Part shown: piece after piece, positions 5,605-58,400 of the stretch
How positions within the stretch are numbered: position 1 is the stretch's first letter
How the letters are laid out: each line of letters opens with the position of its first letter
Source of the DNA: Tardiphaga alba
Lineage (GTDB): Bacteria; Pseudomonadota; Alphaproteobacteria; Rhizobiales; Xanthobacteraceae
Reading direction: 5' to 3'
DNA: 64,000 nt
Assembly: GCF_018279705.1 (NCBI RefSeq)
Contig: NZ_CP036498.1
Span: 3,055,001-3,119,000 of the forward strand
Made by a program: the position numbers and the translations under genes
The notes under the pieces: generated by a model
The model's database searches: none
What the model was told of the DNA's origin: nothing
Seen by the model: the letters and a program-made list of their open reading frames with translations, nothing else

Positions 5605-6366
5605 ATGGCCTTCGTTTCATCAGGATGCTCGTTGCTGCGGCTCGCTGATTGCTTGCGAAGGTTGATTTTTGTGGCGGCCCTGGCGGCTATGGCGTTGATC
5701 GAAGTCAATCATTCAGCGGTCTTTCCAGGTGCTCGGGCCTCCGAGGTCAAAGAACGCGAAACCGGCTCAGGCAAGATCGCGTTCGCGATCGAAGCTCAGC
5801 CGCTTGCTTCGGCACTTGAGGCCTACAGTGTCGTGTCCAGACGGCAGGTGATCTACAACGGAAACCTTGCGATCGGTCGCCAAACTGCGGCGGTCCACGG
5901 GACCTTCGATGTTGAGGAGGCATTGGGGCGGCTCCTCCAGGGGACCGGTCTCTCGCCACGCTACATGGCTGAGGATGCCTTTGTGCTGGTGCCGGCGCCG
6001 AAAGCCGCGCTGCCGACAAGTACGACGCCGGGGCCTCTCGCTGCACGCTACTATGGTTTGATGCAGACCCGGCTCCTGCAAACGCTATGCAGCGACGATG
6101 GCGTCATGCGTGAGACTGATCGACTGGCCGCAAGTTTCTGGATTGATTCAGGTGGCCAGGTCACCCGCGCCACCTTGCTGGATTCCACCGGGGACTCAGG
6201 ACGCGACGCGTCAGTCTTGAAATTGCTTCGCCAAATCTCGGTTGGCGCATCACCACCTGCAGGTTTCGCTCAACCGGTCACGCTCGTGCTGTCGCCGCGG
6301 TCAGCGGCGTTTCAGCAGGAGTGCCGGTCGATGGATGCCGGCATGGTCAGCAGAGTGGGGCGATGA
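5605..6366 (+). CDS. STN-domain/TonB C-terminal-like signalling protein (VreA-like)
   Basis: A 253-residue exported protein. After a hydrophobic N-terminal segment (about residues 18-35) comes a secretin/TonB short N-terminal (STN) domain at roughly 55-125, with the pattern FAIEAQPLASALEAYSVVSRR and GTFDVEEALGRLLQGTGL. Then comes a ~95-residue TonB-C-like domain (LAASFWIDSGGQVTRATLLDS, ending in a run resembling PVTLVLSP). There is no outer-membrane barrel, unlike FecA or FpvA receptors. This STN + TonB-C layout is that of Pseudomonas VreA. Its stop overlaps the start of the sigma gene (ATGA at 6363-6366), so the two are translationally coupled. Inferred role: a periplasmic sensor or transducer acting on the FecR-like protein encoded two genes on. 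Confidence 0.8.
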   Translation: MAFVSSGCSLLRLADCLRRLIFVAALAAMALIEVNHSAVFPGARASEVKERETGSGKIAFAIEAQPLASALEAYSVVSRRQVIYNGNLAIGRQTAAVHGTFDVEEALGRLLQGTGLSPRYMAEDAFVLVPAPKAALPTSTTPGPLAARYYGLMQTRLLQTLCSDDGVMRETDRLAASFWIDSGGQVTRATLLDSTGDSGRDASVLKLLRQISVGASPPAGFAQPVTLVLSPRSAAFQQECRSMDAGMVSRVGR

Positions 6367-6956
6367 CCGGCAACCTGTCCGAACTGCGACGGCGCTTCCT
6401 GCTGCGCTACGACGATCTGAAACTGCGCCTCACGCGTCGCCTAGGCTCGGCGGAGCTCGCGGGCGATGCCTTGCAGGACACGTGGCTGAGACTGGAAACG
6501 GCCGATGGCGCGGCGGTCGTACGCCACGCAGATTCCTACCTCTTCACGGTCGCCGTCAATATCGCACGGGATCGACGCCGGGCCGAAGCGCGGCGCCTGA
6601 CCTCGAACGAGGTCGATGCGTTACTCGACGTCGCTGACGAAGCGCCGAGCCAGATCGATGTCGCCGAAGGCCGATCCGAGATTAGGGCACTGGAAGGGAT
6701 TCTGCTGGAGTTGCCGCCGCGTCAGCGCGCCATTCTGCTGGCGGCCCGGCTCGACGACATGCCGCGCGCCGAGATCGCCAGGCGCTTCCGGATTTCGGTG
6801 CGGCTGGTCCAGCGTGAACTGCTTCAGGCACAAAATTACTGTGCAGGTCGCCTCAAGCGTAATTTTGATTGCACATTGGCTGTGCGGGAAACGTCATTGT
6901 TAAAGAACAATGCGGACGTGGCTGATGCCCGCTTTCCCGCCCATGATGATGAATGA
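6363..6956 (+). CDS. ECF sigma factor, FecI/VreI type
   Basis: A 197-residue sigma-70-family factor with region 2 at ~10-85 (DALQDTWLRLE, then RHADSYLFTVAVNIARDRRR) and region 4 at ~105-165 (LPPRQRAILLAARLDDMPRAEIARRF..SVRLVQRELLQA). The C-terminal ~35 residues are extra and polar. It overlaps the upstream STN gene and the downstream FecR gene by ATGA junctions, which implies fixed stoichiometry. Expected role: bind RNA polymerase when released by the FecR partner and transcribe target promoters. The adjacent giant exoprotein gene is the obvious candidate target, although this is inference. Confidence 0.88.
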   Translation: MTGNLSELRRRFLLRYDDLKLRLTRRLGSAELAGDALQDTWLRLETADGAAVVRHADSYLFTVAVNIARDRRRAEARRLTSNEVDALLDVADEAPSQIDVAEGRSEIRALEGILLELPPRQRAILLAARLDDMPRAEIARRFRISVRLVQRELLQAQNYCAGRLKRNFDCTLAVRETSLLKNNADVADARFPAHDDE

Positions 6957-7921
6957 CGATGCCGCATCCCACCGATGATGACGATCAGCTGGCGCGCGAG
7001 GCGCATCGCTGGGTGGCGCTGCTCGTCTCTGGCGAAGCCAGCACCGAGGATGCGGAAGCGTTGCGAACCTGGCGACGGACCAGTGCTGCGCATGAACGCG
7101 CCTTTGCGCATGCGCGCAGGCGCTGGAAGGATTACGGGCAGGCCGGCCAGACCTTGCGCGAAAGCGGCCAGCTTCCGCCATGGACGCCACCGCGACCGTT
7201 GCTCAGCCGACGTGCGGTGCTGAGTGGTGCCGCCGCCGCCTGTGCCGCGGGCTATGTCGTTGCGAAACCGCCATTCGATCTGTGGCCGTCGTTGACCGAA
7301 TTGGCGGCGGACTATCGGACCGGCACGGGCGAACAGCGCCGAGTCACACTGACGGGTGGTCTGTCCGTGCGCTTGAACACGCAGACCAGTCTCACGGTTG
7401 CCGACAATGCGGCTGAGGAGCTGAAGTTGATCGCCGGCGAGGCATCCTTTGTCATGCCGGCTGATGCCCAGCGTCCCCTTGCCGTCATGGCTGGCAGAGG
7501 GCGCAGCACGGCGACGAGCGGCCGTTTCGAGGTTCGCCACGTGGGCGCGTCCGTTTGCGTCACCTGTGTCGAGGGGGAGGTCCGGGTCGAACACACCGGC
7601 AAGGCAGCGGTGCTTATTGGCGGAAAGCAGGTCCGCTATGACGCGCGTGGCCTTCAGCCGGCAAGCGTCGCCGATCTGAATGTCAGCACCGCCTGGCAGG
7701 ACGGCATGCTCGTGTTCCGGTTCACGCCGCTGTCCGATGTCGTCGCGGAGATCAATCGCTACCGGCCCGGCAAGGTCGTGCTGATGAGCGATGACCTCGG
7801 GGCGAGCCCGGTGAATGGCCGTTTTCGTATCCAGCGTATCGAAGACGTGTTGGTGTGGATCGAGCAGGCGTTCAACATCAAGGGGCGTTCGCTTCCCGGC
7901 GGGATCGTTCTGCTCAGCTAG
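6953..7921 (+). CDS. FecR-family anti-sigma factor/regulator
   Basis: A 322-residue inner-membrane regulator. Residues 10-75 are the cytoplasmic sigma-binding region (DUF4880-like: REAHRWVALLVSGEASTEDAEALRTW). A membrane segment follows a twin arginine at about 87-106. The periplasmic FecR domain spans ~120-245, including LTGGLSVRLNTQTSLTV and GRFEVRHVGASVCVTCVEGEV. The C-terminal domain (~255-322, motif RFTPLSDVVAEINRYRPGK) resembles an STN fold and would contact the STN protein. It forms an operon with the two upstream genes. The exoprotein gene starts 130 bases downstream on the same strand. Confidence 0.88.
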   Translation: MTMPHPTDDDDQLAREAHRWVALLVSGEASTEDAEALRTWRRTSAAHERAFAHARRRWKDYGQAGQTLRESGQLPPWTPPRPLLSRRAVLSGAAAACAAGYVVAKPPFDLWPSLTELAADYRTGTGEQRRVTLTGGLSVRLNTQTSLTVADNAAEELKLIAGEASFVMPADAQRPLAVMAGRGRSTATSGRFEVRHVGASVCVTCVEGEVRVEHTGKAAVLIGGKQVRYDARGLQPASVADLNVSTAWQDGMLVFRFTPLSDVVAEINRYRPGKVVLMSDDLGASPVNGRFRIQRIEDVLVWIEQAFNIKGRSLPGGIVLLS

Positions 7922-8051
7922 CTCGTCGGTTTCGTAGACATAAAAGTTTCATAAAGATTCTTGTTCACGTAGGGGCATCCGCCGTCGTCTCCGAACTGAG
8001 TCACCGTGTCGCAGTTGCCGCTGAACATGGTCCCGATCTCTGTCGCGAGAA

Positions 8052-11000
8052 ATGCCCATGTTCGTCCGCAATGCCGCCGTCTCCCATTCCCAGGCCCGCG
8101 CCATCGTGAGACGCCGGATTTTATGGGCGACCGTGAGCACCGTCGCGCTGAGCGTGATGCCTGCGTCGGTACATGCGCGCGCGCTTGGCGGCGGTAGCAC
8201 CGGCGCGGTTTCCGCGCCGAATATTGCGGCAGATGCAGCGGCGCTGGCGGCACGGCAGGCCGCAACTGCGGTGCGACAGACCCAGGACTCCCTGTCGCGC
8301 GCGGCGCGTGCCGTACAGGACATACAGGCGGTGCAAGCGGCGGCCCGTGCGGCCGCCGCTGCGGCCCAGGTATCGCAGACACGGCCTGTGGCGGTGCCGA
8401 ACGGTCTCGCGCCCGGAGGTCTGGTGCAAGGCCCGGGCAGTTGGACGAACGCCAATGGCCCCACGCAATCCATCGACAGTTCTGGTCAGACCCAGGTCAA
8501 GGTACAGCAGACGGGGCAGCAGGCGATCCTGGATTGGTCGAGTTTCAACATCGGTTCGCGCACCACGCTGACCTTCGATCAGCAGGGCAAGGCGGATTGG
8601 GTCGCGGTCAACCGCGTCAGCGCGAGCACGGCTCCGATTCAAATTCTCGGCAACATCAAGGCCGATGGCCAGGTCTATGTCATCAATCAGAGCGGCATCA
8701 TCTTCGGCGGCAATAGCCAGGTGAATGTCGGCTCGCTGATCGTGGCGGCCGCGGCGATCTCGCCGGAACAGCTCAGCAAGGGACTATACTCGAACCAAAG
8801 CGGACAAGACTGGACGCCCAGCTTCACCGACGCGCTCGGCGAGGTTCGTGTCGAGGCCGGTGCGCAGATCGCCACGAAGGCGCCGACCAGCGTGACCTCC
8901 GGCGGTGGCTTTGTGATGCTGCTAGGCCAGTCCGTCGTGAATGACGGCATGATTTCAACGCCGAAAGGGCAGGCGCTGCTCGCGGCCGGTGACTCTTTTA
9001 TCTTGCGTCATGGCTTCAGCACCACAGGCAACACCGCATCGACGACCCGCGGCGCCGAAGTGTCGCCGGTCATCAATGCCGGTAGCAGCAGCGGCCGGGT
9101 GGTGAATTCAGGCCTCATCTTTGCACAACAAGGCGACATCACGCTCGCCGGCCGCGACCTGCTGGTTGGTGGTGCGCTGATCTCGACGAGTTCGGTCAAT
9201 ACGCGCGGCACCATCCATTTGCTCAACCGGGCGTCCGATACCGCGGGCAAGATCACCTTGGCCGCCGGCAGTGTGACAGCAATTCTTCCCGAGCTCGACA
9301 GCGGCGAGACGGCGTTGGACAGTGCGCGCAACGCGCTGATCGCTGCGTCACTTGAAGCCGACAAGCTCCGCTTCGGCAGCGCAGCCGGTGTGTTCGACAA
9401 TCTGTCGCGCCTCTCCGACCGGCAGGACCAGTCGCGGATCGAGATCGTCACCGGTGGCAGCGTCAGTTTCGCCGGCGGCTCCTATACGGCCGCGCAGGGC
9501 GGCCAGATTGCGGTCTCCGCGGCGAAGACGATCGACGTGGCCGATGGCGCCTTGCTCGACGTGTCCGGCGTGCGCAACGTCGCGCTGGCGATGTCGAGCA
9601 ACAATATCAGGGTCAATGTGCAGGGCAACGAACTGCGCGATAGCCCGCAGAACCGCGACAACGGTGCCCTGACCAGCAACGATGTCTGGATCGATGCGCG
9701 CTATCTCACTTTCGTCGCGGCCGGCACCGGCGGCTATGCATCCGATCGTTACTATACGCCGGGCGGCCTGCTCGAAGTCGGCGGCTATCTCAACACCACC
9801 GCGCACACCATCGGCGAATGGGCCGCCATCGGCGGCAGCATCACATTGCAGGCACCTGAGCTCACTGCCCATGAGGGCGCGCGCTTCGATATTTCCGGCG
9901 GCTCGCTGGATGTTGCAGCGGGCTGGATCCGATCGACCAATCTGATCGGCAGCGATGGGCGCCGCTACAGCGTGGACAACGCGCCGGCCGACATGAAATT
10001 CGTCGGCTTTGCCGGCAGTTTTTCACGCACGCATAACATCCAGGGGAAGGTCGATGATCGGCTCACGGAAGTCTGGTTCAGCGTGTTCGATCGCGGCCGC
10101 AACTCGTTGCGCTGGGAAGAAGGCTATTCGGTCGGTCGCGACGCCGGCCGTCTGAACCTCGCGGCGCCGACCGCAAAATTCGCGGCCACCATCGTCGCCG
10201 ATACGGTCACGGGTGAACAGCAGACCTCCCGCCGCAATGCCGGCGTGACCGATGGCTACAAGCTTTCGCATAATGTCGTCGCGCAAAACGGTACGCTGGC
10301 GTTGCAGATCTATGAGGGCAGCACCGGTGTACCGCGATGGACAGCACTCGACAGCGCCATCACCTTCAGCGATGCGCCGGCACCAAGCGACCGCACCGGA
10401 ACGGTCTGGCTCAGCTCCGATCTGCTGACCAGCTTCAATCTCGGCGGCATCTCGGCATGGTCGACGAAGGGGATCGCCGTCGACAGTGCATTGGCAGTCG
10501 CTGCTGGCGGCGTGATCGATTTTCAGGCGGCGAACGTCACCATCGCTGCGGATGTCACGGCGCGCAGCGGCACGGTCACCATCGGCAATCTGGTGCCGGG
10601 AAGCTCGCCGCTGCTGGACGGAACCGCGAGCTCGCATATGACCTTGCGCAACGGCGCGGTGATCGACACACGCGGCGTCTGGAGCAACGCGCTGCTCGAT
10701 GAAACGACCAGCCCATCCGCTGAAGCGTATATTGATGGCGGCGACGTCACCATCAGCACGACGCTCCATGTCACCCTTGAGACCGGATCGCGCATCGATG
10801 CATCAGCGGGCGGCATGGTTTCGCCGCGCGGCAAATTCAAGGGCGGCAGCGGCGGCGATATCACGCTGATCGCCAGCGCATCCAACGCATCCGGAACCGG
10901 ACAACTGACACTGGGCGGCCAGCTCGTTTCGACGGGCTTCGCCAAGGGCGGTGCATTGACGCTCGACACCGGCGGCGCGGTGGTGATCGGCGGCGCTGTG

Positions 11001-14000
11001 CCCACGCAGCCGCAGACGCTGCATCTCGCCGCCGACTTCTTCAGCCAGGGCTTCTCCAGCTATGCCATCAACGGCCAGAAATCGCTGACCGTCGCCGCTG
11101 ATGCGGCCGTCAACGTCACCAGGCCGACCTATCAGGCCACGAGCGCGCTTTATGAATTGGCGAGCGGCGGGGATGTCGCCACGGCCGCCGCGACAGTCCT
11201 GCAGCCGCTCTATCTCGACAATGCCATGAAGGGCAGCACCACGCAGCGCGCAGGCGCTGATTTGCTCCTGCGCTCCGGCGGTCGTCCGGACTTTGCTGGC
11301 ACGAACAGCGCCATCACCATCGCGCAAGGTGCCAGCATCACGGTTGATCCCGGCCGCAAAGTCGAGCTGGTCAGCGCCGGGCAGATCACCGTGCTCGGCC
11401 GTATCACGGCGCATGCCGGACGCATTGAAATCCGCGACGGCAATGCGGGGTTCCCGTCGGCCGGTGTAACGTCGCCCTATACTGCCTATGATCCCGGCGC
11501 GCGCTCGATCTGGATCGGCGAGACCGCCGTGCTCGACGTGTCGGCACAAGCGCATGTGGCGCGCGACGTGCAGGGCGGTTTCTTCGGCATCGTCGCCGAC
11601 GGTGGCAAGATCATCATCGGCGGCACCGGCGCGGTCGTGAAGGATTCGACGGTCCGCAACAGCGCAATCTCCCATGTGGTGATACGTTCGGGCGCGATCC
11701 TCGACGCATCGGGAACCGCGGGCGAACTGACCGTGTCCGATATCAACGGCACGCGCACGATCATGGCCGGCAGCAATGGCGGCAGCATCACGATTGCATC
11801 GCGATCGAGCATCTATATGGACGGCACGCTGCGCGCCCAGGCCGGCAGCGCCAATGCATCTGGCGGTTCGCTCTCGGTATTCTTCGAGTCGCCCTTGTTC
11901 GCGGAAACCAATGCGAGTTTCGTGCCGGCCTATATGCGCGCCGCACGCATTCTCACGATCGGGCAGAGTGCTGTCACCGGCGATCTCGCCGCGGGCGCGC
12001 GTCCGGGCGTCGCCGATCCCACCTTGGTCATCGGCCATGGACACATCACCGCCGACACGATCATGGCGTCGGGGGCCGATAGCGTCCAGCTGTGGACACG
12101 GGGTGGCATCTCGTTCGACGGCAATGTCAATCTCGCCACCGGGCGCAGCCTGACCCTCAGCCACAGCGGATTTATCACCAACACCTCGGCCGGCCAGGTG
12201 TGGAATGGCGACATCGCCAACACCACCGCAGGCGCAACGGTGCGGCTGAAGTCGGCCTATGTGGGCTTGATCGGTCTCGGCGTGCAGAAGGACACGCTCG
12301 TCTTCGCGGACATCCTGCCTGCGATGCCAGCTGGCGGTTTGCTGGAGATTTCGGCCGGGCTGATCGACCTGCAGAGCGACATCCGCTTCAAATACGCCGA
12401 TACGGTGCTCGTCAGCCGCGGCGACATCCGGGTGCTCGCCACGCCGGGTGGGCTGACGACCATCGGCACCTCTGGCAACCTCACGCTCACGGCGCAGCAG
12501 GTCTACCCGGCCAGCGGCGCTTCCGCGACCTTGTTTGCGGGCATGAACAGCACCGGCACGACCATCACCGATATGAACGCTGTACTGCGCATCCTCTCCG
12601 TCGACGGCAGCCGTCCGGCCGCGCCTTATTCGGTGTTCGGCAGCCTCTCATTGACGGCGCCGACCATCCTGCAGGGCGGCGTGCTGCGCGCGCCGCTCGG
12701 CTCCATTACGCTCGGCAAGCACATCGCCAAGTCGGCGACGGATAACTTCTTCACGCGCGTCGAATTGCTGGCAGGCAGCCTGACATCGGTGAGTGCTGCC
12801 GGCCTGATCATGCCGTATGGCGGCACGACGGACGGTGTGAACTACACCGCCGACGGCGTGGCAGCCATCACGCCGGATCTGATGACCGGTGCGTTCGGCA
12901 CGTCCGGTACGCGCCTGGGCGTGGCCATCAATGCCAGCGAGGTGACCAGCGCCGCCGGATCCGTGATCGATCTGTCGGGCGGCGGCACGCTGACGGGCGC
13001 GGGCTTCGTGTCCGGCCGCGGCGGCTCGGTGGACGTGCTGGTCGCAACGCTGGCCGATGCCAATCCAGCCAACCGCAAATACGGCACCGGCAATGCCGTC
13101 TATGCGCTCGTCCCCGGCGTGGTCACCGCGCCGGTCACCGGTGGCTACAACACGGCCTGGACCGGCAATGCGCCCGGTATCGGCCAGCAGGTCACGATCC
13201 CAGCGGGCGTGCCCGGCCTTGCCGCCGGCACCTATACGCTGATGCCTGCCAACTACGCGCTGTTGCCCGGCGCGTTCCGCGTCGAGATCGCGTCCAGCCA
13301 TGTCACGGCGACCACGGCGCCGATCGCGCTCGCCAATGGCTCGTATCTCGCGAGCGGTATGCTGGGTATCGCCAATACGTCGATCCGCGATGCGCTGCAG
13401 ACCACGCTGATCCTCACGCCCGGAAATGCCACGCGCAGTTATGCGAAGTACAACGAGCAGAACTATACCGACTTCCAGCTCGCACAGTCCGCCCGCTTCG
13501 GCACCACGCCGACACTGCTGGAGCGCGATGGCAAGTTCCTGTCCATCAGCCTGATGGCGCTCGACGGCGGCAACCCGACCAGTACGCAGCAGCGCACGCG
13601 TGACGCGCTTGTCTTTGAGGGCCGCGCGTTGTTTGCGGCGGACGACGGCGGCTATGGCGGCACGCTCAATCTCGGCGTCGTGCGCAACGTCTATGTCACT
13701 GGCTCGCAGTCGACGCTGCAGATCGTCAAGGCCGGCTCCATCGTCAACCGTACATCGATGGCGACCCCGGTGTCTGACGCCACGATCGCAGCGATCGGTG
13801 CGCCGAATATCAATATCGGCGGCGTGCTTGGACGGAAGGAAAACACGGTCGGCTGGGACTATACCCAGACGGATCAGATAGGGACCTGGAATGTCATAGT
13901 CGATAGCGGCGTGGTGCTGCGCGGCTCGCAGATCATTCTGGCGGCGCTCCGCAATATCACCATCGCATCGGGTGCGCGGGTCGATACGCTGGGCTGGGGC

Positions 14001-17000
14001 GTGCAGGCGCCCGACAGCAATGCCACCGGCCTGACCTATGGCGGGCCTTCGCTGGATTCCGCCAATAGCGGCAACATGGCCGCGGTCGTTGCGGTCTCGA
14101 ACGGCACGATCGCCTTCAGCGCGCCCATCGGCACCGCCGGCAATGTGACCATCGGGGATGGCGCGACCCTGGTGAGCGAGGGATCGATCGGCTTCCTCGT
14201 GCCGGGCAGCCTGACGGTGAACGGAACGCCGGTTCTCGGCACCCGCAGCCTCAATCTCACAGTGCCGACCCTCAATGTCGGCACTGCCGCATCGCTGGAC
14301 GCGGCGCGCGCCGCGGGAACGCTGCCGACCGGACTGGCTTTCGACCAGAGCCTGTTCGATCGCTTGCTGGCTGGCGGTGCCGGCGCGGGCGCGCCGGCAT
14401 TGGAGACGCTGGTGCTCGGCGCCAGCAACTCCATCAACTTCTTCGGATCGGTGAGCCTCGACGCCATCGATCCGCTCACGGGCCGTTCACGCCTCAAGCA
14501 ATTCCAGCTCAACACGCCAGCCATCTACGGCGCAGGAAGCGCGGGCGATCAGGTCCGCATCTCCGCTGATACCTTGATCTGGAACGGCTACGCCACCACC
14601 GTGGGCAATGCCACGCAGCCGTCGCCCAGCAAGACACCGGGTGCGACCACGCCTGGCGGCGCCGGTAACGGTGCCGGCACCATCACCATCGATGCAAGGC
14701 GCGTCGTGCTCGGCTTCGGCCCGAACGATCGCAGCTACTCGCAGGTCAATTACGATCGGCTGATGCTCGGCTTCTCGGCGGTCACTCTCAGCGCCAGCGA
14801 GGCGATCGTCGCCAACAACCGTGGCACGCTGGCGGTGTTCGCCTCCGGACCGAGCCCTGACAACACCTACAACAGCAAGACCTATGCCGGTGTCGGCGGT
14901 GCGCTCAATCTGGTGACGCCGCTGCTCACCGGCGATCCCGGCGCCGTGTTGTCGATCCGGGCCGGCGGCGATGTGCGTCTCACCCGGCCGGTCGGCGCAT
15001 CCGAGGTCAAGCCGGCGGCGGCGCTGGGCGCCGATATCGCCATCACTGCGGGCGAATCCCTGTATCTCGACTCGACCATCTATCTGCCGAGCGGGCGCTT
15101 CTCTGGCACCGCGGGCAGCAATGTTACGCTCGGCGCCAACTCCAAACTCGATCTGTCGGGACAGGCGATTCCGATGCTCGACGTCACCAAATATTCGTGG
15201 GGCGGCGATGTCTTGCTGGAATCCCGCTTCGGCGAAATCCGGCAGATGGCTGGATCGGTGATCGACATTTCGGCGGCCAACAACGATGCCGGTTCGTTGA
15301 CGCTGACAGCCACCAGCAGTTCGGGTCGGGTCATTCTGGGCGGTACGCTCAAAGCGACCGGCGTCCGTGGCGGCTCGATCGATCTGCGCGCGCGATTGAT
15401 CGGCGCCTTTGTCAATACTCAGTCGGAAGACTTTGCCGCTCTCAATATCAAGCTCAGCGAGGCCGGTTTCACCGAGCGCCGCAGCTTCGTGCTCAAGCAA
15501 GGCAATCTTGTCATCGGCAATGAATTGAAGGCGCATGACATCTCGGTTTCCGTCGATGACGGCATGCTCACCGTGAACGGCAAGATCGACGCCAGCGGCG
15601 AGCGCGCCGGCAGTATCCGTCTGTGGGCGATCGATGACGTGATCCTCACCAATACCGCTGTCCTCGATGCCCATGGCACCGTGCTGCAGGTCGATAGCGA
15701 CGGCAACGCCATCGCCGCCAAGAACCGTGCATTGGTGGAAGTCGGCAGCACTTATGTCGGGCTGCAGCTGGACTCGGGTGCGGTGATCGATGTGTCATCG
15801 CCCGATGGTGTTTCGCGGGGCACGTTCAACCTTTACGCACCGCGTTTCGGCGGTGGAACCAGTGCCACCGGTGCAGGTGCGCCATACAACGCCATCGGCT
15901 ACGACATCCCCATCGAAATCGGGACGAACATCGATATTCGCGGCGCGCGCGAGATCGCGGTCTATGGGGAGACGACATACAAGAATGCTCCGGTCGATCC
16001 GAACACTCCCGGCACGCAGGTGATCGACAAGGCCTTCCTCGACAAGGTCGATCGGGACAGCACGGCCTTCATCAATGCTGCGCTCGCCAACAGTGATTTG
16101 ATGGGTAGGCTTGCCGGCCTCACAGCCTATGGCAGCGCCTTCCATCTTCGTCCGGGCGTCACCATCGCCAGCGCCACACCCACGGGCAATCTCATTGTCA
16201 GTGGCGATATAGACCTGTCCGCTTATCGCTACGGTCCAAACGCCGAGCGCGATCCCGGATCTGCGACCTATGGCTCCGGCGAGGCTATGGGCCTCACTCT
16301 GCGCGCTGGCGGTAATCTGACAGTGCGTGGCAATCTGTCTGATGGCTATCGGACCACGGCCCAGGGGACGCCGGCCACATTCCGGCAGATCACGATCCTC
16401 AATAACAGTACCGATTTCGTCACCAATGGTACGCGCAACGTCACTCTCCCGAGTGGTACGCGAGTCAGTATTCCTTACTATCGCAATCGCAACGCGATCA
16501 GCCTCGTCACTGACTGGACCGTTCCGACGACGGACTACTACGTCTATGGTACGAGTGGGGTCACGGACAGCACCGGGAAGGTATGGTCGCCGGGATCGAT
16601 CGTTCCGGCCGGAACGACGTTTTCTGTCAACCAGCTGCAACTGGTCACGGCGGAGGCGGCGAGATGGCCGACCGTGCAATACGTCACCCCGGCGCAGGCA
16701 CCGCAATATTCCACACCGCTCGCCGGCGCTGCAACGCAGCTGCGCGTCGTTGCGGGCTCTGATCTGAACGCCGCCGCCGCACGCACGCTGGCCGCAGCCA
16801 GCACTTTGGCAAATCGTGGCAACATCATCCTGAACAATCCGATGAGCAATGGCAGCGTGCCGGCCCCAGCATGCTACGCACCGGTGCCGCCGATCTCGAT
16901 CTTCTCGCGGGCGGCGATCTGAACCAGCTCTCGCCCTTCAACATCTCGACCTTCGGCAAGGGTGATGCGGTGCCCGCAGATCTCTTCGTCAAGACGCAGG

Positions 17001-19581
17001 GCGTTCTCACCGGTCATGCCTTCGTTGCGGAGTCCGGCAACTACGTGACCAGTGCCACGGTGTCGCGCTGGTACAACCAGAATGGCGTAAATTTCGCAGG
17101 CTTTGGCGCGCTTAATGGCGGCAATGTCACGCTCGAGGCCGGCGGCGATGCCGGCGTGTTGCGACCGCATGGCAGCGGCACCGCGTCGCTCGGATATGCC
17201 AGCACGGCCATCGTCGCCGGCGTTCAGGGCGGCGGCGATGTGCGCATCACCATTGGCGGCGCGCTCAATCCGCTAGGTTACGGCGGCTCGCCCGGCGGCG
17301 GCAATGACGACATGAACGGCGTGTTCAGTACCGATCGGGGCGACATCACCGTAAAGGCCGGCCGCATCGGCGTCATCCCGCTGGTTTACGGCACAAGGGA
17401 AATCAACGATCCACGTCAGGCAGACCGCCTGACCGCTGCCGCTATCGGCATGGCGGCCGGCGGCGTGATGCTGCTGCCGCGCGACGGTCATGTGTCGATT
17501 CTCAGCCGCGGCGATCTCGTCGTCGCCGGTTATGGCACATCCGGCACCAGCGCCAGACTGAACTGGAGCGACGAGACCGCGGTGTCGCTGTTCTCCGCGG
17601 GTGGCAATGTCGTGCCGATCAATGGCGACAGAGAGGGGCGGCCGAACGACAACTGGCGCAGCGATGCGCCGGGAGGCTTCCGTCAGTACCATGTGCCCGG
17701 ACATTTCTCGGTGGTCGCGGCGGAGGGCAGCATTTATCTCGGTGGCCGGCCGCAGAATATCTCGACCTATCAAGACATCATCGTGCATGTCGATGCGGTG
17801 CCTGACGGCGGACTCGAATTGCTGGCCCGGAATTCGATCTACGGTGCGGCGACCCACGATACGATTCACCTGACCAACCCGGTTCGTTTCGATATCGGCG
17901 GCGGCGCCGGTTCACTCTATGACGGCGACGACACGCCGATACGGATCTACGCCGTCACCGGCGATCTGGTGAATGTCGTTCTGGGCCAGGCCCGTGTACG
18001 GCAGAACGGAAATGTCGACTATGTCGGCGCCAAGGCAGCACGCGTCATGGCCGGCCGCGACATGGTTGGTTTCGGCCTGATCACCCAAGCCCTGGACGAT
18101 GGCACTCTTGGCATCCAGCCAAGTTTCATCCTGCACAACGACGCCAACGACGTGTCGGTTATCTCGGCCGGCCGCAACATGTACTACACGAATGTGGAAA
18201 TCGCCGGTCCCGGTACGCTGGAAGTCACCGCGGGCGGTGACATCTATCAGGGCTACAAAGGCGGCATCGCCTCGCTCGGCCCGATCGCGCCGGGCGACAA
18301 CCGGCCGGGTGCATCCATCGCGGTGATGGCGGGGCAGGCACAGCGGGCGCGCGCTACGACAATCTGCTGGTCTATCTCGATCCCGCCAATCTTGCAGTGT
18401 CCGGCACACCGCTGGCGGATCAGGTCGGCAAGGTGGCGAAGACCTATGAAAGCGAGTTGCGCAAGTGGCTGCAGGATCGCTACGGCTTTGCCACCACCGA
18501 CGATACGCAAGCCCGCAGCTACTTCGCCGCATTGGCGCCGGAGCAGCAGCACATCTTCCTGCGCAAGGTCTATTATGCCGAGCTGAAAGCCGGCGGGCGC
18601 GAATATAACGATGCGACGAGCAGCCGCTTCGGTTCCTATCTGCGCGGCCGTCAGGCCATCGCGGCGCTGTTCCCGGAGGGTAACGCCTATCGCGGCGATC
18701 TCGTGATGTTCAGCGGCATCGAAGGCAGCGGTGCCAATGCCACGCGCTACGACTCCGGCATCCGGACGTTGTTCGGCGGCAACATCCAGATCATGACGCC
18801 GGGCGGTCAGCAGGTGATCGGGGTCGAAGGCGTCACGCCGGGCGCCAAGTCCGGTCTGGTGACGCAGGGGCAGGGCGATATCCAGCTCTATGCGGAGGGT
18901 TCGATCCTGCTCGGCCAGTCGCGCATCATGACGACGTTTGGTGGCGATATCCTGGCCTGGTCGGCCAGCGGCGACATCAATGCCGGCCGAGGCTCGAAGA
19001 CATCGGTGCTGTATACGCCGCCGAAACGGGTCTATGACAAATATGGTCGTGTCACGCTATCGCCGCAGGTGCCGGCCACCGGTGCGGGTATCGCGACGCT
19101 TAATCCAATCCCGGAAGTGCCGGCGGGCGACATCGATCTGATCGCACCTGAAGGCACCATTGATGCGGGTGAGGCGGGCATCCGCGTCTCGGGCAATATC
19201 AACCTGGCGGCTCTGCAGGTACTGAATGCGGCGAACATTCAGGTGCAGGGCACCGCGTCGGGTATCCCGACAGTACAGGCGCCAAGCATCACCGCGGCGC
19301 TCTCCACCTCTAATGCGGCGGCGGCCACGCAGCAGACCGCCACGCCAAACCAGGGCAGCGGCAATGATCGACCGTCGGTGATCATCGTCGAAGTGCTCGG
19401 CTACGGCGGCGGCAACGATGGTGAGGACGAAGAGCGCCGCGACAAGCGACGCAGCGACGACCGCGCCAGCTACAATCCGAACAGTGCGTTGAAATTGATC
19501 GGCAACGGCGCGCTGAGCAATGAGCAGAGGCAGAATCTGACTGAAAGCGAGCGAAGGAATTTCGATCAGATCGGTCTGTAA
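8052..19581 (+). CDS. Giant filamentous-haemagglutinin-like TpsA exoprotein (two frameshifts as given)
   Basis: Three consecutive frames (8052-16922, then from about 16864 to about 18331, then to 19581) read as one protein of about 3,843 residues if one base is restored at each of two runs: C4 at 16864-16867 and G4 at 18331-18334. The N-terminus has a long basic signal region (RAIVRRRILWATVSTVALSVMP) and an Ala/Gln helix. The TPS secretion domain at ~130-260 contains DWSSFNIGSRTTLTFDQ and VYVINQSGIIFGGNSQVNVGSL, equivalent to the NPNGI block recognised by TpsB. The rest is repetitive beta-helix rich in G, A, S and T, with many GG-x-I/V-x-I/L strands. The C-terminus is acidic and basic (GEDEERRDKRRSDD). 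I see no toxin or C-terminal anchor domain. It follows the FecR operon; a TpsB is absent from the window. Likely a secreted or surface adhesin. Confidence 0.85.
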
Positions 19582-21437: not shown

Positions 21438-22472
21438 GTGGATCTCACCGTTCTCCTTTTCCTGTTCCAAGACGGAGTTATCAATGGAGCGGTTTATGCG
21501 CTCGTTGCGCTTGCTCTCGTGCTTGTTTTCGCAGTCACTCGCGTAATCCTCGTATCGCAGGGGGAATTCGTTGCCTTCGCTGCTCTGACCGTGTCCGCTC
21601 TCGAGAATGGCCGGGCACCCGGTACGATCTGGCTTCTCATCACCATGGGATTGCTTGCGGCGGCCTCAGAAATCGTCTTGTTTCGGAAGGATCTTGGCAT
21701 TGGACGCCTATGTCGCATCGCAGCATTCGATATTGCGTTGCCGGTTGGTCTCGCGTTCCTCACATGGACCGTCGCGCCGCTGAAACTCGGCACGTTCGCG
21801 AACAGCGTCGTCGCTATCCTTTTAATCTTGCCGATGGGCTCGATGCTGTATCGCATCGCGTTCCAGCCGATCGCGACAGCCAGCGTGCTGGTCCTGTTGA
21901 TCGCAGCATTCGGCGTACACTTCTCCCTGATGGGAGTCGGTTTGCTCTTCTTCGGGCCGGAGGGGGTCGGAACGACGCCCTTTTCGGCAGAGAGCTTCTC
22001 ACTCGGCACGCTGGTTGTGAGCGCTCAAAGCATCCTCGTCGTATGCGTAACGCTCATTGCGCTTTCAGTGTTCGCCGGCTTCTTCAACTGGACGATTTTC
22101 GGGAAAGCCCTTCGGGCTTCGGCTTCCAACCGCGTCGGTGCCCGTCTATCCGGGATCCCTGTCGAACTGGCGGGACAGGCCGCCTTCACGATAGCCGCAG
22201 GGCTGGGCGCAGTTTCCGGTGTGCTCGTCGGGCCGTTGACGACGATGTATTACGACAGCGGATTCCTGATCGGTCTTAAAGGGTTCGTAGCGGCCATTCT
22301 GGGAGGGCTGGTGAGCTTCCCGTTGACGGTCATCGCCGCACTCGTCGTTGGATTTGCCGAGTCGATGTTCTCATTCTGGGCAAGCTCTTTCAAGGAAGTG
22401 TTGGTGTTCAGTCTGATCGTCCCAATTCTCCTGTGGCGATCGCTCTATTCGACGTCGGGAGGGCACGGCTGA
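21438..22472 (+). CDS. livH: Branched-chain amino acid-type ABC permease (LivH)
   Basis: About 344 residues with eight or nine hydrophobic segments. It has the LivH opening VINGAVYALVALALVLVFAVTRVI (shown here as its start and end), a cytoplasmic coupling region with FGKALRASASNRVGARLSGI, and the closing QAAFTIAAGLGAVSGVL and KGFVAAILGGLVSFPLTVI. I prefer the GTG at 21438, which follows GGGG by 7 bases and puts the first membrane segment at the N-terminus; a GTG at 21384 would add 18 polar residues. Its stop overlaps the next start (TGATG at 22470-22474). It forms the first part of a HAAT-family importer. Confidence 0.85.
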   Translation: MDLTVLLFLFQDGVINGAVYALVALALVLVFAVTRVILVSQGEFVAFAALTVSALENGRAPGTIWLLITMGLLAAASEIVLFRKDLGIGRLCRIAAFDIALPVGLAFLTWTVAPLKLGTFANSVVAILLILPMGSMLYRIAFQPIATASVLVLLIAAFGVHFSLMGVGLLFFGPEGVGTTPFSAESFSLGTLVVSAQSILVVCVTLIALSVFAGFFNWTIFGKALRASASNRVGARLSGIPVELAGQAAFTIAAGLGAVSGVLVGPLTTMYYDSGFLIGLKGFVAAILGGLVSFPLTVIAALVVGFAESMFSFWASSFKEVLVFSLIVPILLWRSLYSTSGGHG

Positions 22473-24310
22473 TGGGCGCTGCATCGAAAATGAAGCGCTT
22501 CGTTGAGCCTGTTGCATTCCTGCTTGTTCTCGCCCTCGCAGTGAGCGGTGTTCTATCGAGCTTCACGGTTGCATTGATCAATGACATCGCGATTGCCAGT
22601 CTCGTTGCACTGGGGCTTGTCGTATTGACGGGCGTTGGCGGGATGACGTCGTTCGGGCAGGCCGCGTTCGTCGGCTTGGGCGCTTACACGACTGCGGTCC
22701 TGACTGTCCGGTATGGCCTGTCTCCGTGGCTTGCACTGGCGGCGTCCATCGTCGTCACCGGCGGTTGTGCGCTTTTGATCGGGGCCGTGACGGTGCGGCT
22801 TTCCGGTCATTACCTTCCCCTCGGGACGATCGCCTGGGGCATCTCATTCTACTATCTGTTCGGCAATATCGAATGGCTTGGCAGGCACGATGGTATTTCG
22901 GGTATTCCTCCACTGACTCTTGGCAACCACGCGATCACCGGCCAGAAAGAGTATCTGATCCTCACCCTCGGCGTCTTGTTCACCGCGATCCTGTTGACAC
23001 GCAATCTGTTGCGCGGGCGTGTAGGTCGAGCGGTTCGTTCACTGCGGGACGGCACCCATGCGGCCGAGGCGTTCGGCGTTCATCCCAGCACGGTCAAACT
23101 CATAGTCTTTGTGTTCGCAGCTATGCTCGCAGCGATCGCTGGTTGGCTGTATGCTCATTTTCAACGGTCTGTATCGCCAGGGCCATTCGGCATTACGGCG
23201 GGCACCGAGTATTTGCTGATGGCTGTTCTCGGCGGGGCAGGGCGGATTTACGGTGCGGTTCTGGGTGCCGCTCTCGTCATCCTTCTGCGGGATCAGCTTC
23301 AATCTTGGTTGCCGCATCTGCTTGGCGCTGGAAACTATGAAACCATTATCTTCGGTGCCGCGCTCGTTCTGCTGTTGAGAGGTGCGAGCGACGGTCTCTG
23401 GGCGAAGATCGCCGGACGTGAGGCTGCGATTGCTTTCGATTCTGCTTCGGGCGTTCTTACCGCTTCCAGAAAAGAACGACCGGCCAAGGACACGAAGTTG
23501 CTCGAGCTCCGGCACCTGAAAAAGGTGTTCGGCGGGCTGATCGCTGTGAATGACGTGACATTCGCAGTGCCTGCGGGCCGCATCGTCGGTCTGATCGGCC
23601 CGAACGGCGCCGGAAAGAGCACCACTTTCAATCTCGCGACGGGTGTCCTTACGCCCACGAGCGGAGAAGTGTGCTTTTGCGACGAAGCCTTGAAAACGAT
23701 CTCTCCCCAGGAAATGGCACGGCTCGGCGTGGGTCGTTCGTTTCAACATCCTGAGATCATGACGGACATGAGCGTCGTGGAGAACGTCATGCTTGGTGCC
23801 CATCTGCGCGGCCATGCGGGTGCAGTGAAAGCGATGTTGGGACTCGACCGTAAGGAAGAACTTGTACTTCACGCCATTGCCTGGCGGATGCTCCAGCGCA
23901 CCGGACTTGAAAAAGTCGCCCTGAGCCCTGCTGGGACATTGTCGTTGGGTCAGCTTCGCCTTCTCGAAGTCGCCAGAGCACTCGCTTTGGACCCGCTCAT
24001 CGTCCTCCTGGATGAGCCGGCTGCCGGTCTGCGAGTCTGCGAAAAACGGGAGTTGGCGAGATTGCTTCGCGAACTAAGACAGGAGGGCGTTGCAGTCCTC
24101 ATGGTGGAGCATGACATGGATTTCGTTATGAGTCTTGCCGACCACCTTATCGTTCTGGATTTCGGCAACCAGATCGCCGAGGGCGACGCGAACGGAATAC
24201 GAAGTAATCCGCGGGTTCTCGATGCGTATCTGGGAGGGCCGCGTGAGCAATTCCTTGCTATCGGTAAGCTCCCTTTCGGCGGGTTACGGATCCGCCGAGG
24301 TTTTGCATGA
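22472..24310 (+). CDS. Fused LivM permease-LivG ATPase
   Basis: A 612-residue fusion. Residues ~1-310 are a LivM permease (DIAIASLVALGLVVLTGVGG, SFGQAAFVGLGAY, then FVFAAMLAAIAGWLYAHFQ). A ~40-residue linker leads to a LivG ATPase at ~350-612 with Walker A GPNGAGKST, signature LSLGQLRLLEVARAL, Walker B LIVLLDEPAAGL and H-loop VEHDMDF. The ATG at 22472 overlaps the livH stop and follows GGAGG. Fused LivM-LivG proteins occur in Bradyrhizobium relatives. The final ~20 residues overlap the livF start in another frame. Substrates of this ABC class include branched-chain amino acids, aromatic acids and amides. Confidence 0.88.
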   Translation: MGAASKMKRFVEPVAFLLVLALAVSGVLSSFTVALINDIAIASLVALGLVVLTGVGGMTSFGQAAFVGLGAYTTAVLTVRYGLSPWLALAASIVVTGGCALLIGAVTVRLSGHYLPLGTIAWGISFYYLFGNIEWLGRHDGISGIPPLTLGNHAITGQKEYLILTLGVLFTAILLTRNLLRGRVGRAVRSLRDGTHAAEAFGVHPSTVKLIVFVFAAMLAAIAGWLYAHFQRSVSPGPFGITAGTEYLLMAVLGGAGRIYGAVLGAALVILLRDQLQSWLPHLLGAGNYETIIFGAALVLLLRGASDGLWAKIAGREAAIAFDSASGVLTASRKERPAKDTKLLELRHLKKVFGGLIAVNDVTFAVPAGRIVGLIGPNGAGKSTTFNLATGVLTPTSGEVCFCDEALKTISPQEMARLGVGRSFQHPEIMTDMSVVENVMLGAHLRGHAGAVKAMLGLDRKEELVLHAIAWRMLQRTGLEKVALSPAGTLSLGQLRLLEVARALALDPLIVLLDEPAAGLRVCEKRELARLLRELRQEGVAVLMVEHDMDFVMSLADHLIVLDFGNQIAEGDANGIRSNPRVLDAYLGGPREQFLAIGKLPFGGLRIRRGFA

Positions 24311-55475: not shown

Positions 55476-58400
55476 ATGAAGGCTTTTGTTCGCGCCGCCA
55501 GTTTCTGCGTCGCCTTGGCAATGGGACTGGCGTCCAGCCAGGCCGCGGACAAGGCTTTCCGCCGCGATGAGCTGGCCGATCGCGCGATCAAGCTGGAGTC
55601 GCAGATCAAGAGCGAAGCGGGGCCCGTTGCCAAATCGGCGGTGACCTTGCGCACCGATGCCGATGCCGCATTCCGCCGCTCGGACATGCGCGCCGGGTTG
55701 CAGATCCTCGGACAGATCGTGGCGATTGCGCCGGAAGATGGCGCCAATTGGCTACGCCTCGCCAAGACTGTTTCGCAGATCCGCCCGGCAACATCTTCGG
55801 AAACCACCTTCCTGCGTGAGCGGGCCGCGACCGCTGCCTATATTGCCTATCAACGTGCCGGCAATGCTGGCGAGGAGGCCGAGGCACTGGCCGTGCTTGG
55901 CCGCGCCATGGCCGAACGGAAACTCTGGCGTCCCGCGCTGGATGCTTTCAGGCTGTCACTGGATCTGCGCGAGGTCGCGGATACACGCGAGCAATACGAG
56001 AAAATGCGCGGTGAGCACGGTTTCCGGTTGCTCGACTACAGCGTGGACTCCGATTCGGCGTCGCCGCGCGCCTGCTTCCAGTTTTCTGAGGATCTGGCGA
56101 AACGCGTCGATTTCGGACCGTTCCTGGCGCTTGCGGGCAGCGACAAGCCGGCACTGACGTCCGAGGACAAGCAGCTCTGCGTCGAGGGTCTCAAGCACGG
56201 CGAGCGCTACAACATCAATCTGCGTGCGGGCCTGCCATCCACCGTGAAGGAAAGCCTGCCGAAATCGGCTGAATTCAACATCTACGTACGCGACCGCAAG
56301 CCCTTCGTACGCTTTACCGGCCGTGCCTATGTTCTGCCGCGTACCGGCCAGAAGGGCATCCCGCTGGTGTCGGTCAACACACAGGCAGTCAATATCAATG
56401 TGTTCCGGATCGGCGACCGCAACCTGATCAACACCGTGATCGGCAGCGATTTCCAGACTGCGCTCAGCAAGTACCAGCTCGAAGCGCTTGGCGATGAGCG
56501 CGGCCAGAAGGTCTGGACCGGCGAACTCACTACAGACACCAAGCTCAACGAAGACGTTATCACCGCGTTTCCGGTGGATCAGGCGATCGGCGAGTTGCAG
56601 CCCGGCGTCTATGTGATGACCGCAGCGGCCAAAGGCCCGGGGTCGGCCGGCAACGACGACGAGGGAGGCTCGTTGGCCACCCAGTGGTTCATCGTCTCCG
56701 ATCTCGGTTTGACCGCGTTCTCCGGCAATGACGGCATCCACGTCTTCGTCAACTCGCTGGCCTCGACCGAGCCGACGACGAAAGCCGAAGTGCGCCTGAT
56801 CGCGCGCAACAACGAGATCCTGGCAACGCGCCAGACCGACGACGCCGGCCATGTCCTTTTCGAAGCCGGCCTCGGCAAGGGCGAGGGCGGGTTGTCGCCG
56901 GCGATGCTGACCGTGACGGCAGCCAAGGCCGACTATGCCTTCCTGAGTCTCAAGTCGAATGCCTTCGACCTGTCCGACCGCGGTGTATCCGGCCGTCCGG
57001 TTCCGGCCGGTGCGGACGCCTTCGTCTATGCCGAGCGTGGCGTCTATCGCTCCGGTGAAACCGTCTACCTCACCGCGCTGCTGCGGGACGGGCAGGGCAA
57101 TGCCGTGAGCTCCGGTCCGATGACGCTTGTCGTTGAACGTCCAGACGGCGTCGAGTTCCGCCGGACCGTCCTGCAGGATCAGGGGGCAGGCGGTCGCAGC
57201 CTCACGCTCCCGCTGAATTCTGCCGTGCCGACCGGCACCTGGCGCGTCCGCGCCTTCACCGATCCGAAGGCGCCATCGATCGGTGAAACCACGTTCATGG
57301 TCGAGGATTACGTCGCCGACCGGATCGAATTTGATATAAATTCCAAGGACAAACTGATCAAAGCTGATCTTCCTGTAGAACTTAAGGTTGATGGCAGGTT
57401 CCTCTATGGTGCGCCGGCTTCGGGCCTCCAGCTCGAAGGCGATCTGCTGGTTGCGCCGGCCGCCGCGCGCCCGGGTTATCCCGGCTATCAGTTCGGTGTC
57501 GCGGACGAAGAAAGCGCCAGCAACGAACGCAAGCCGATCGAGGACCTGCCCGAAGCCGACGCCAACGGGTCCGCGACCTTCCCGGTCAGCCTGGCGAAGC
57601 CGCCATCCTCGACCCGGCCGCAGGAGGCGCAGATTTTCATTCGCATGACGGAGTCCGGAGGGCGGGCCGTCGAGCGCAAGCTGGTGCTGCCGATTGCCCC
57701 CGCAGCTCCCATGATCGGCGTGAAGCCGCTGTTCCAGGACAAGAGCGTTGCCGAGGGCGACAATGCGGCCTTCGACGTCGTGGTCGTATCGCCCGAGGGC
57801 ACCTCGCTCGCCCGCAACGGTCTGCGCTACGAACTCCTCAAGATCGAGTCGCGCTACCAGTGGTACCGGCAGAATTCGTCCTGGGACTATGAGCCCGTAA
57901 AGTCCACCAAGCGCGTGGCCGACGGCGACCTGACGATTGCCGCGGACAAGCCGGCCCGGATCAGCCTGCAGCCGCAGCCGGGCCGGTATCGCCTTGATGT
58001 GAAGTCCAACGACACGGATGGCCCGATCACATCGGTGCAGTTCGATGTGGGCTGGTATTCGGACGGCAACGCCGATACGCCGGACCTGCTGGAGACCTCC
58101 ATCGACAAGCCGGAATATGCCTCCGGTGACACCATGACGGTGTCGGTGAATGCACGTACGGCCGGCCGTCTGACGGTCAATGTCATCGGCGACCGACTGC
58201 TCACGACCACCAGCGTTTCGGTCAAGGAAGGCGCCTCGAAAGTCACCCTTCCAGTCGGCAAGGACTGGGGCACTGGCGCATATGTCGTGGCGACGTTGCG
58301 GCGGCCGCTGGACAGTGCGGGACAACGGATGCCTGGGCGCGCCATCGGCCTGAAATGGTTCGGGATCGACAAGAAGGCGCGCACCCTCGACGTCGCATTG

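Follow-up and report, generated by a model that had tools for sequence, protein, structure and literature searches.

An exoprotein tail that tracks the regulators in PUMA3-type vreA-vreI-vreR-tpsA cassettes of Tardiphaga and other proteobacteria

The stretch of Tardiphaga alba DNA analysed here, called the window throughout (64,000 nucleotides, 3055001-3119000 of a single 5.86-Mb contig; genome G000), almost certainly carries a PUMA3-type vreA-vreI-vreR-tpsA cassette, that is, a regulatory operon directly followed by the gene of a very large exoprotein of the two-partner secretion (TPS) type. When cassettes of this kind are compared within the genus and beyond it, the extreme C-terminal tail of the exoprotein follows the divergence of the regulators more closely than any other part of the protein, although it lies 11-13 kb from them. 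The explanation that we find most likely, and put forward tentatively from sequence comparison, is that the tail may be held in the periplasm as the private ligand of the TonB-like domain of VreA. The pattern offers a concrete candidate ligand (about 45 residues) together with a partner domain, and the question of what VreA senses thereby becomes testable. A search of the open-access literature, with subscription papers outside its scope, found no printed report of such tracking.

The cassette in the window and known systems

The regulatory part of the cassette consists of three genes:

5605..6366, + strand: vreA-like gene (253 aa; N-terminal helix, STN domain at about residues 57-132, TonB/TolA-type C-terminal domain at about residues 142-232)
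6363..6956, + strand: vreI-like gene for an extracytoplasmic function (ECF) sigma factor of the FecI type (197 aa; ATGA overlap with vreA at 6363-6366)
6953..7921, + strand: vreR-like anti-sigma gene (322 aa; DUF4880, FecR, FecR_C; ATGA overlap with vreI at 6953-6956)

The three genes are adjacent, form one overlapping operon in this order, and all their frames are open. In the vreA product, Pfam recognizes an STN domain (E 1.1e-10) and gives a weak TonB_2 match; a TonB C-terminal domain scores above the curated NCBIfam cut-off (29.7 vs 27.1 bits), and no receptor domain was matched in the 253 residues by either Pfam or NCBIfam. Pfam also assigns ECF sigma regions 2 and 4 to the vreI product and DUF4880, FecR and FecR_C to the vreR product. 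An AlphaFold2 model of VreA, built from an alignment of 90, has a mean predicted local distance difference test score of 82.6 and a predicted template modelling score of 0.57. The structures nearest to its STN domain are the signalling domains of FpvA, PupB and FecA, and those nearest to its second domain are TolA C-terminal domains, some of them solved with g3p or a TolB peptide bound, with TonB C-terminal domains resembling it more weakly. The N-terminal helix (residues 10-30) fits a signal sequence. Two cysteines, C162 and C240, are kept in at least 90% of the 90 aligned homologues and possibly form a disulfide. An earlier note on this DNA, made by a model from the letters alone, had proposed a VreA-VreI-VreR operon whose first product joins an STN domain to a TonB-C fold without a barrel; the fold is borne out by Pfam, NCBIfam and the model, and the likeness is right in domain content, gene order and ATGA overlaps.

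The published accounts cited here and below were available in part, and what is said of them holds for those parts. Llamas et al., 2009 (PMC2729926) described the two domains of VreA, its lack of a barrel and its tpsA target, and the printed view of VreA as a periplasmic protein is in keeping with the suggestion of the earlier note that the signal may need no siderophore-type receptor. The Pseudomonas aeruginosa PUMA3/PdtA system (PA0690) resembles the window cassette in its barrel-less STN and TolA/TonB-type protein, ECF sigma factor, FecR-type anti-sigma factor, gene order and TpsA target (PMC2729926, PMC7035377). Its regulated set holds tpsB, exbB, exbD, tonB and a putative porin gene (PA0692-PA0696; PMC2729926, PMC7035377), and genes of these kinds sit in T. 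alba in a hub of their own; unlike in P. aeruginosa, tpsA here directly follows vreR, the cassettes are repeated (four), and the tpsB-exbBD hub is separate, 1.78 Mb off. PUMA3 clusters, fourfold, have also been printed for Rhodopseudomonas palustris and Janthinobacterium, three followed by tpsA and one by tpsB and exbBD (Llamas et al., 2009; PMC2729926). This is the same design as in T. alba, and the window cassette is therefore a further member of a printed kind, to which only the copy number and the private C-terminal tail pattern are added here. What the earlier note had called an independently placed alphaproteobacterial version is indeed alphaproteobacterial and physically coupled to its exoprotein gene, tpsA beginning at 8052 directly after vreR, but it is not new.

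The cassette shares its STN domain, FecR anti-sigma factor and FecI-type sigma factor with FecA-FecR-FecI and FpvA/PupB signalling, from which it differs in having no TonB-dependent receptor barrel and an exoprotein gene as its neighbour. With FhaB/FhaC and other two-partner secretion systems it has in common the TPS domain and the very large exoprotein; FhaB keeps its C-terminal part in the periplasm, where the ends of HMW1 and HxuA are also expected (PMC8263021, PMC5422565). FhaB differs in being under BvgAS and in having an extreme C-terminus that guards against protease, and the available parts of these accounts describe no linked sigma, anti-sigma and VreA set for it.

The tail of the exoprotein follows the regulators

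The exoprotein gene of the window and its parts are:

8052..16922, + strand: tpsA, first frame (2,956 aa)
8466..9251, + strand: TPS secretion domain (PF05860), in the first tpsA frame
interval 16763..16922, + strand: first frame change of tpsA (from stop-codon maps and position-specific GC)
16871..18586, + strand: tpsA, second frame
interval 18241..18586, + strand: second frame change of tpsA (from stop-codon maps and position-specific GC)
18397..19581, + strand: tpsA, third frame (394 aa; holds DUF3739)
18940..19272, + strand: DUF3739 (PF12545), predicted beta-rich end of the exoprotein
19372..19410, + strand: conserved box PSVIIVEVLGYGG of the exoprotein
19411..19578, + strand: private C-terminal tail (charged linker, then core Y[DN]PxSxVQxxGxGxL...LTxxERxxL)

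In these exoproteins DUF3739 is followed by the box PSVIIVEVLGYGG, which in many betaproteobacterial copies is PSIFTVRVLGFG instead, then by a variable charged linker and a C-terminal core, Y[DN]PxSxVQ[VIL][LV]GxGxL...LTxxERxxL. The core can be recognized in alpha- and betaproteobacteria, 85/89 tails fitting a search pattern, and since it is so widely recognizable the tail is probably under selection. In frames of at least 1,500 codons, 118/125 rows matching the tail pattern (overlapping loci included) end no more than 30 residues from the frame end; matches in shorter frames mostly abut the ends of sequence stretches or lie in broken tpsA copies, L102 alone having been checked by sequence. 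In a model of the exoprotein end, DUF3739 is beta-rich, box and linker have low confidence, and the end is short and helical. On our reading of the sequences, box and core seem to resemble TonB boxes.

Among 50 complete cassettes of the genus the three regulators VreA, VreI and VreR diverge together (r 0.75-0.83), but the TPS domain of the exoprotein encoded next to them does not keep step (r 0.10-0.18). The aligned TpsA proteins (about 4,000 residues) were scanned in segments of 45 residues, each correlated with the divergence of VreA, VreI and VreR. For Tardiphaga the scan covered 40 exoproteins in frames of more than 3,400 codons (15 from G004, 14 from G014, 6 from G001, 5 from G003), 10 broken or cut ones having been dropped. 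In these 40 cassettes from four genomes the C-terminal segment ranks first of 267 (r 0.68; median 0.20, best elsewhere 0.43), and it again ranks first, of 263, in 49 cassettes from other genera (r 0.62; median 0.17; best elsewhere 0.54, at the extreme N-terminus). The same segment leads when the latter are divided into betaproteobacteria (n=27, r 0.66) and other alphaproteobacteria (n=21, r 0.71), one Lysobacter cassette belonging to neither group; across the three sets (40, 27 and 21 cassettes) the median segment reaches r 0.16-0.24. In a dedicated alignment the tail correlates with every regulator in every set at r 0.52-0.67, values attained in 0/2000 permutations; between the TPS domain and all three regulators, and between DUF3739 and VreR or VreI, r is 0.04-0.37. 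The cassette nearest by regulators is also the nearest by tail in 54/89 cases, by TPS domain in 14 and by DUF3739 in 17. Segments of the body that are as variable as the tail (118 in Tardiphaga, 150 in other genera) have a mean r of 0.23 and 0.18 and a maximum of 0.43 and 0.54, respectively.

The tail of the window itself, which stands outside the scan sets because its gene is broken, is closest to that of cassette G004:C9, by a small lead (score 148, next 143); its VreA, VreI and VreR are nearest to G004:C9 as well (51, 70 and 57%), and its TPS domain is nearest to another cassette, G004:C11 (77%). In a multiple regression the C-terminal domain of VreA remains associated with the tail, both in Tardiphaga (beta 0.19, p about 0.016) and elsewhere (beta 0.21, p about 0.001), and the STN domain and the periplasmic part of VreR do not. 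At the DNA level, pairs with related regulators exceed the 95th percentile of the background in the tail in 11/15 cases in Tardiphaga and 11/16 elsewhere, in the first 240 bases of tpsA in 7/15 and 10/16, and in the 250 bases after the tpsA stop codon in 5/12 and 3/16, a weakness that saturation could cause; the stretch before tpsA also exceeds the background, with medians of 0.75 against 0.58 in Tardiphaga and of 0.69 against 0.58 elsewhere.

Distribution of the cassettes and the secretion hub

DUF3739 is matched in 6/18 Tardiphaga genomes (G000 4, G001 6, G003 7, G004 17, G008 9 rows with split genes included, and G014 20, this last being a metagenome-assembled genome of about 130 contigs with 8% contamination). 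Two-domain VreA matches are confined to the same six genomes, three others matching by the STN part of long frames only. Of 68 vreR matches kept from regions of the genus, 62 have vreA and vreI upstream, and 51 of these also have more than 2.5 kb downstream; a TPS domain comes next in 49/51, the remaining two being hubs. Beyond the genus, the named genomes among the best 80 of 271 places matched by VreA, some of them over the STN domain only, include those of Bradyrhizobium, Afipia, Rhodopseudomonas, Reyranella, Variovorax, Achromobacter, Cupriavidus, Janthinobacterium, Lysobacter and Pseudomonas, and DUF3739 was found in 25/25 named genomes searched (81 matches), all 25 having been chosen by their VreA match. 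The 66 regions of other genera that were examined, mostly with frames of more than about 3,400 codons, yielded 49 intact tpsA genes with vreA, vreI and vreR directly upstream. The four-gene order, which the earlier note had advised seeking in relatives, is present in these 49 cassettes and in the 49/51 genus sets. The other 17/66 regions comprise 2 without a TPS domain in the frame and 15 without vreR upstream; in 10 of the latter the DUF3739 exoprotein gene is intact and vreR is missing although the room upstream exceeds 5 kb (e.g., L213, L228, L273). The L102 locus of Bradyrhizobium embrapense (L102:10001-11586) is a decayed cassette in which vreA is followed by the start of vreI in frame with the end of tpsA (DUF3739 and tail), by deletion.

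The genome of the window contains four TPS-domain genes, each with vreR, vreI and vreA directly upstream, vreA of copy C lying in two frames. A fifth vreA-vreI-vreR set forms the hub at 1275.8-1286.8 kb, in which a TonB gene stands between vreA and vreI, and which continues 3' with tpsB, a large ExbB-like gene, exbD, a small gene of unknown kind, a second TonB-like gene and a Porin_5 gene. This ten-gene order is identical in 6/6 genus genomes having such cassettes, and relatives hold up to about 20 exoprotein genes of this type with one hub each. Genes of the ShlB family number 2, 3, 1, 4, 2 and 3 in the six genomes, one in each being the tpsB of the hub. The ExbB-like gene of the hub (G000:C1 1281.2-1283.2 kb; L023:13216-15201) encodes 662 aa; in its product, DUF2341 and laminin-G domains precede the proton-channel domain of ExbB, as scanned in G000 only, and frames of about the same length match it in 6/6 genomes.

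What VreA may sense, and other explanations of the tail

In the mechanism that we consider most likely, the TpsB of the hub would thread TpsA outward, beginning with the N-terminal TPS domain, and the extreme C-terminal tail would be the last part left in the periplasm. There the TonB/TolA-like C-terminal domain of VreA could bind the tail of the TpsA from its own cassette; this would probably occur by strand pairing, the way in which peptides are bound by TolA and TonB domains. The STN domain would relay the binding to VreR, as the signalling domains of receptors do, and VreR would set the activity of VreI at the tpsA promoter. A cassette would in this way read the presence or the export state of its own exoprotein, with a sign that may be either activation or a feedback brake. 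In VreA a domain of a peptide-binding type (TolA with TolB peptide or g3p) is joined to a domain of the kind that talks to FecR proteins. The function of VreA and the inducing signal of PUMA3 have been stated as unknown (PMC7035377). A broader proposal, possible but doubtful, is that each exoprotein ends in a short private address read by the TonB-like domain of its own VreA, a secretion-coupled and multiplexed form of auto-sensing in which up to about 20 exoproteins would share one exporter and one ExbBD-TonB complex, each gene would be controlled only by its matching sensor, and the shared TonB would make its contact at the conserved, TonB-box-like box that precedes the tail. If true, many giant surface proteins would pass through one exporter under private control, and this could account for the occurrence of ExbB-ExbD-TonB genes alongside TPS exoproteins of this type.

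Several observations weigh against recognition of the tail by VreA. In P. aeruginosa, deletion of vreA left sigma-VreI promoter activity (in low phosphate) and virulence unchanged (PMC4971064, PMC7035377). The modelled core of the tail contains no strand. In the regression VreI (beta 0.31 in Tardiphaga, 0.15 elsewhere) and the cytoplasmic part of VreR (0.19, 0.35) are also associated with the tail, which they track as well as or better than VreA does; as neither is able to touch the tail, their association can only mark shared ancestry. Covariation between residues, measured as mutual information, singled out no partner of the tail, the enrichment among the top 50 pairs being 1.8-fold for the C-terminal domain of VreA, 1.75 for VreI and 1.77 for the periplasmic part of VreR. 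Among pairs whose VreI proteins are less than 60% identical r falls to 0.19-0.35, the signal thus coming mostly from closer relatives, and tracking of the regulators is also seen in the first 45 residues of TpsA (0.33 in Tardiphaga, 0.34 in other alphaproteobacteria, 0.59 in betaproteobacteria). The lead of the tail over the tpsA start at the DNA level is clear in Tardiphaga and slight elsewhere, and the permutations treat cassettes as exchangeable, ignoring shared ancestry.

On account of the weaker distant pairs, the N-terminal tracking, the DNA-level result, the dispensable VreA and the ancestry-blind permutations, a neutral origin of the pattern deserves serious consideration as a possibility, if not our preference: the bodies of tpsA genes would be homogenized within a lineage by recombination between the conserved TPS and DUF3739 regions, so that only the gene ends keep the ancestry shared with the linked regulators and the tail is a leftover of linkage and no ligand. 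Affiliation with the host genus is indeed stronger for the TPS domain and DUF3739 than for the regulators (nearest in the same genus in 51/78 vs 37-40/78), identity peaks in these two regions, where recombination would be easiest, and the tracking by the first 45 residues (0.33-0.59) is what a homogenized middle with retained ends would give; in other genera, the start of tpsA nearly equals the tail at the DNA level, 10 of the 16 related pairs exceeding the background there as against 11 in the tail. Yet the tail, 11-13 kb away, surpasses the tpsA start in all three sets (0.66-0.71 vs 0.33-0.59), tracking is weak just after the stop codon (5/12 and 3/16 related pairs), though saturation could be the cause, and a core recognizable in 85/89 tails speaks for selection. 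It is unlikely, in our view, that VreA senses something else (an unlinked outer-membrane protein or the TonB complex of the hub) or is vestigial, with VreI and VreR under other cues such as phosphate and the tail serving to anchor or release the exoprotein. Such an explanation would suit the dispensability of vreA in P. aeruginosa, where expression of pdtA needs PhoB (PMC4971064, PMC7035377), and the C-terminal anchor function reported for other TpsA proteins (PMC5422565); however, VreA has been kept, has conserved positions and diverges together with VreR and VreI (r 0.75-0.78 in the genus), which argues against a vestige here, and one would not expect a tail that is purely an anchor in one shared TpsB to track the regulators.

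A further alternative concerns the window alone and is compatible with the other explanations. Either breakage or mis-assembly affects its tpsA, whose coding is spread over three frames; stop-codon maps and position-specific GC agree on both changes, and the exoprotein gene to which the earlier note gave about 3,840 residues is not one frame. That the cassette has decayed, with tpsA a pseudogene and the operon left without control of a secreted product, is conceivable, and we rather doubt it. The two frame changes would fit decay, as would the state of the same genome, where neither tpsA in copies C and D nor vreA in copy C is a single frame; tpsA of copy B runs open for 4,112 codons. On the other side, vreA, vreI and vreR of the window are open, as are all five vreI and five vreR genes of the cassettes of this genome, so that a few indel errors in a single-contig assembly explain the tpsA breaks equally well. 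In the single-contig relative G008, tpsA is split in 7/7 cassettes and vreA or vreR in 5/8 sets, and open tpsA frames of more than 3,400 codons are common in the genus (40/50 complete cassettes). The split vreA, vreR and tpsA genes at G008:C1 1.51-1.58, 2.12-2.20 and 3.91-3.93 Mb look like uncorrected indel errors. Regarding a CdiA-type toxin end, the last piece of the window tpsA shows only DUF3739 (Pfam) in a scan limited to Pfam and NCBIfam, and the frame that comes after tpsA matches a LysR substrate-binding domain.

Control of tpsA

The intergenic region before tpsA contains one candidate element:

7962..7992, + strand: promoter-like footprint TGTTCA-N18-CGTCTCC, upstream of tpsA; candidate VreI promoter

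The earlier note had expected a FecI-type promoter in 7922-8051, and the footprint provides a candidate there, though a general motif across cassettes is weak. The same boxes with the same spacing occur in G004:C9 and in Bradyrhizobium L062, and the pattern is absent from L063, L064 and L065. It is found once in the window and 0 times in 100 shuffles, the pattern having been taken from the window itself, which makes its single match there one by construction. A two-block motif search over 55 intergenic regions of the genus reached an information content of 11.3-13.4 in ten runs, vs 11.2-11.6 as the best of five shuffled sets; its best product, an A/T-rich box with a weak second box at scattered spacing, was rejected as a general promoter motif. 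Over 102 regions, CGTC(C/T/G)T(T/C) is modestly enriched (34 vs a shuffle mean of 21.8, max 30), and CGTCCTTA is present in 7 of them (shuffle mean 0.2, max 2), some being related copies. Convincing footprints were met with only within related groups. From the gene order (49/51) and the promoter-like footprint we infer that the sigma factor VreI probably controls tpsA.

Other observations

Three further fecI-fecR pairs of this genome (G000:C1 2539.7-2541.7, 2951.7-2953.8 and 3834.7-3836.9 kb) lie beside STN matches in long frames of 1,231, 1,152 and 602 codons and are probably ordinary cell-surface signalling sets. Synteny of the 3' flank of the window was uninformative on insertion, the DNA matches in the genus being scattered similarities of the ABC-transporter kind. 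At 22433-24307 of the window, a branched-chain amino-acid ABC permease and its ATPase form one frame of 625 aa, and at 55476-62842 the gene of a bacterial alpha-2-macroglobulin (1,740 aa) overlaps a transglycosylase-transpeptidase gene with a BiPBP_C domain.

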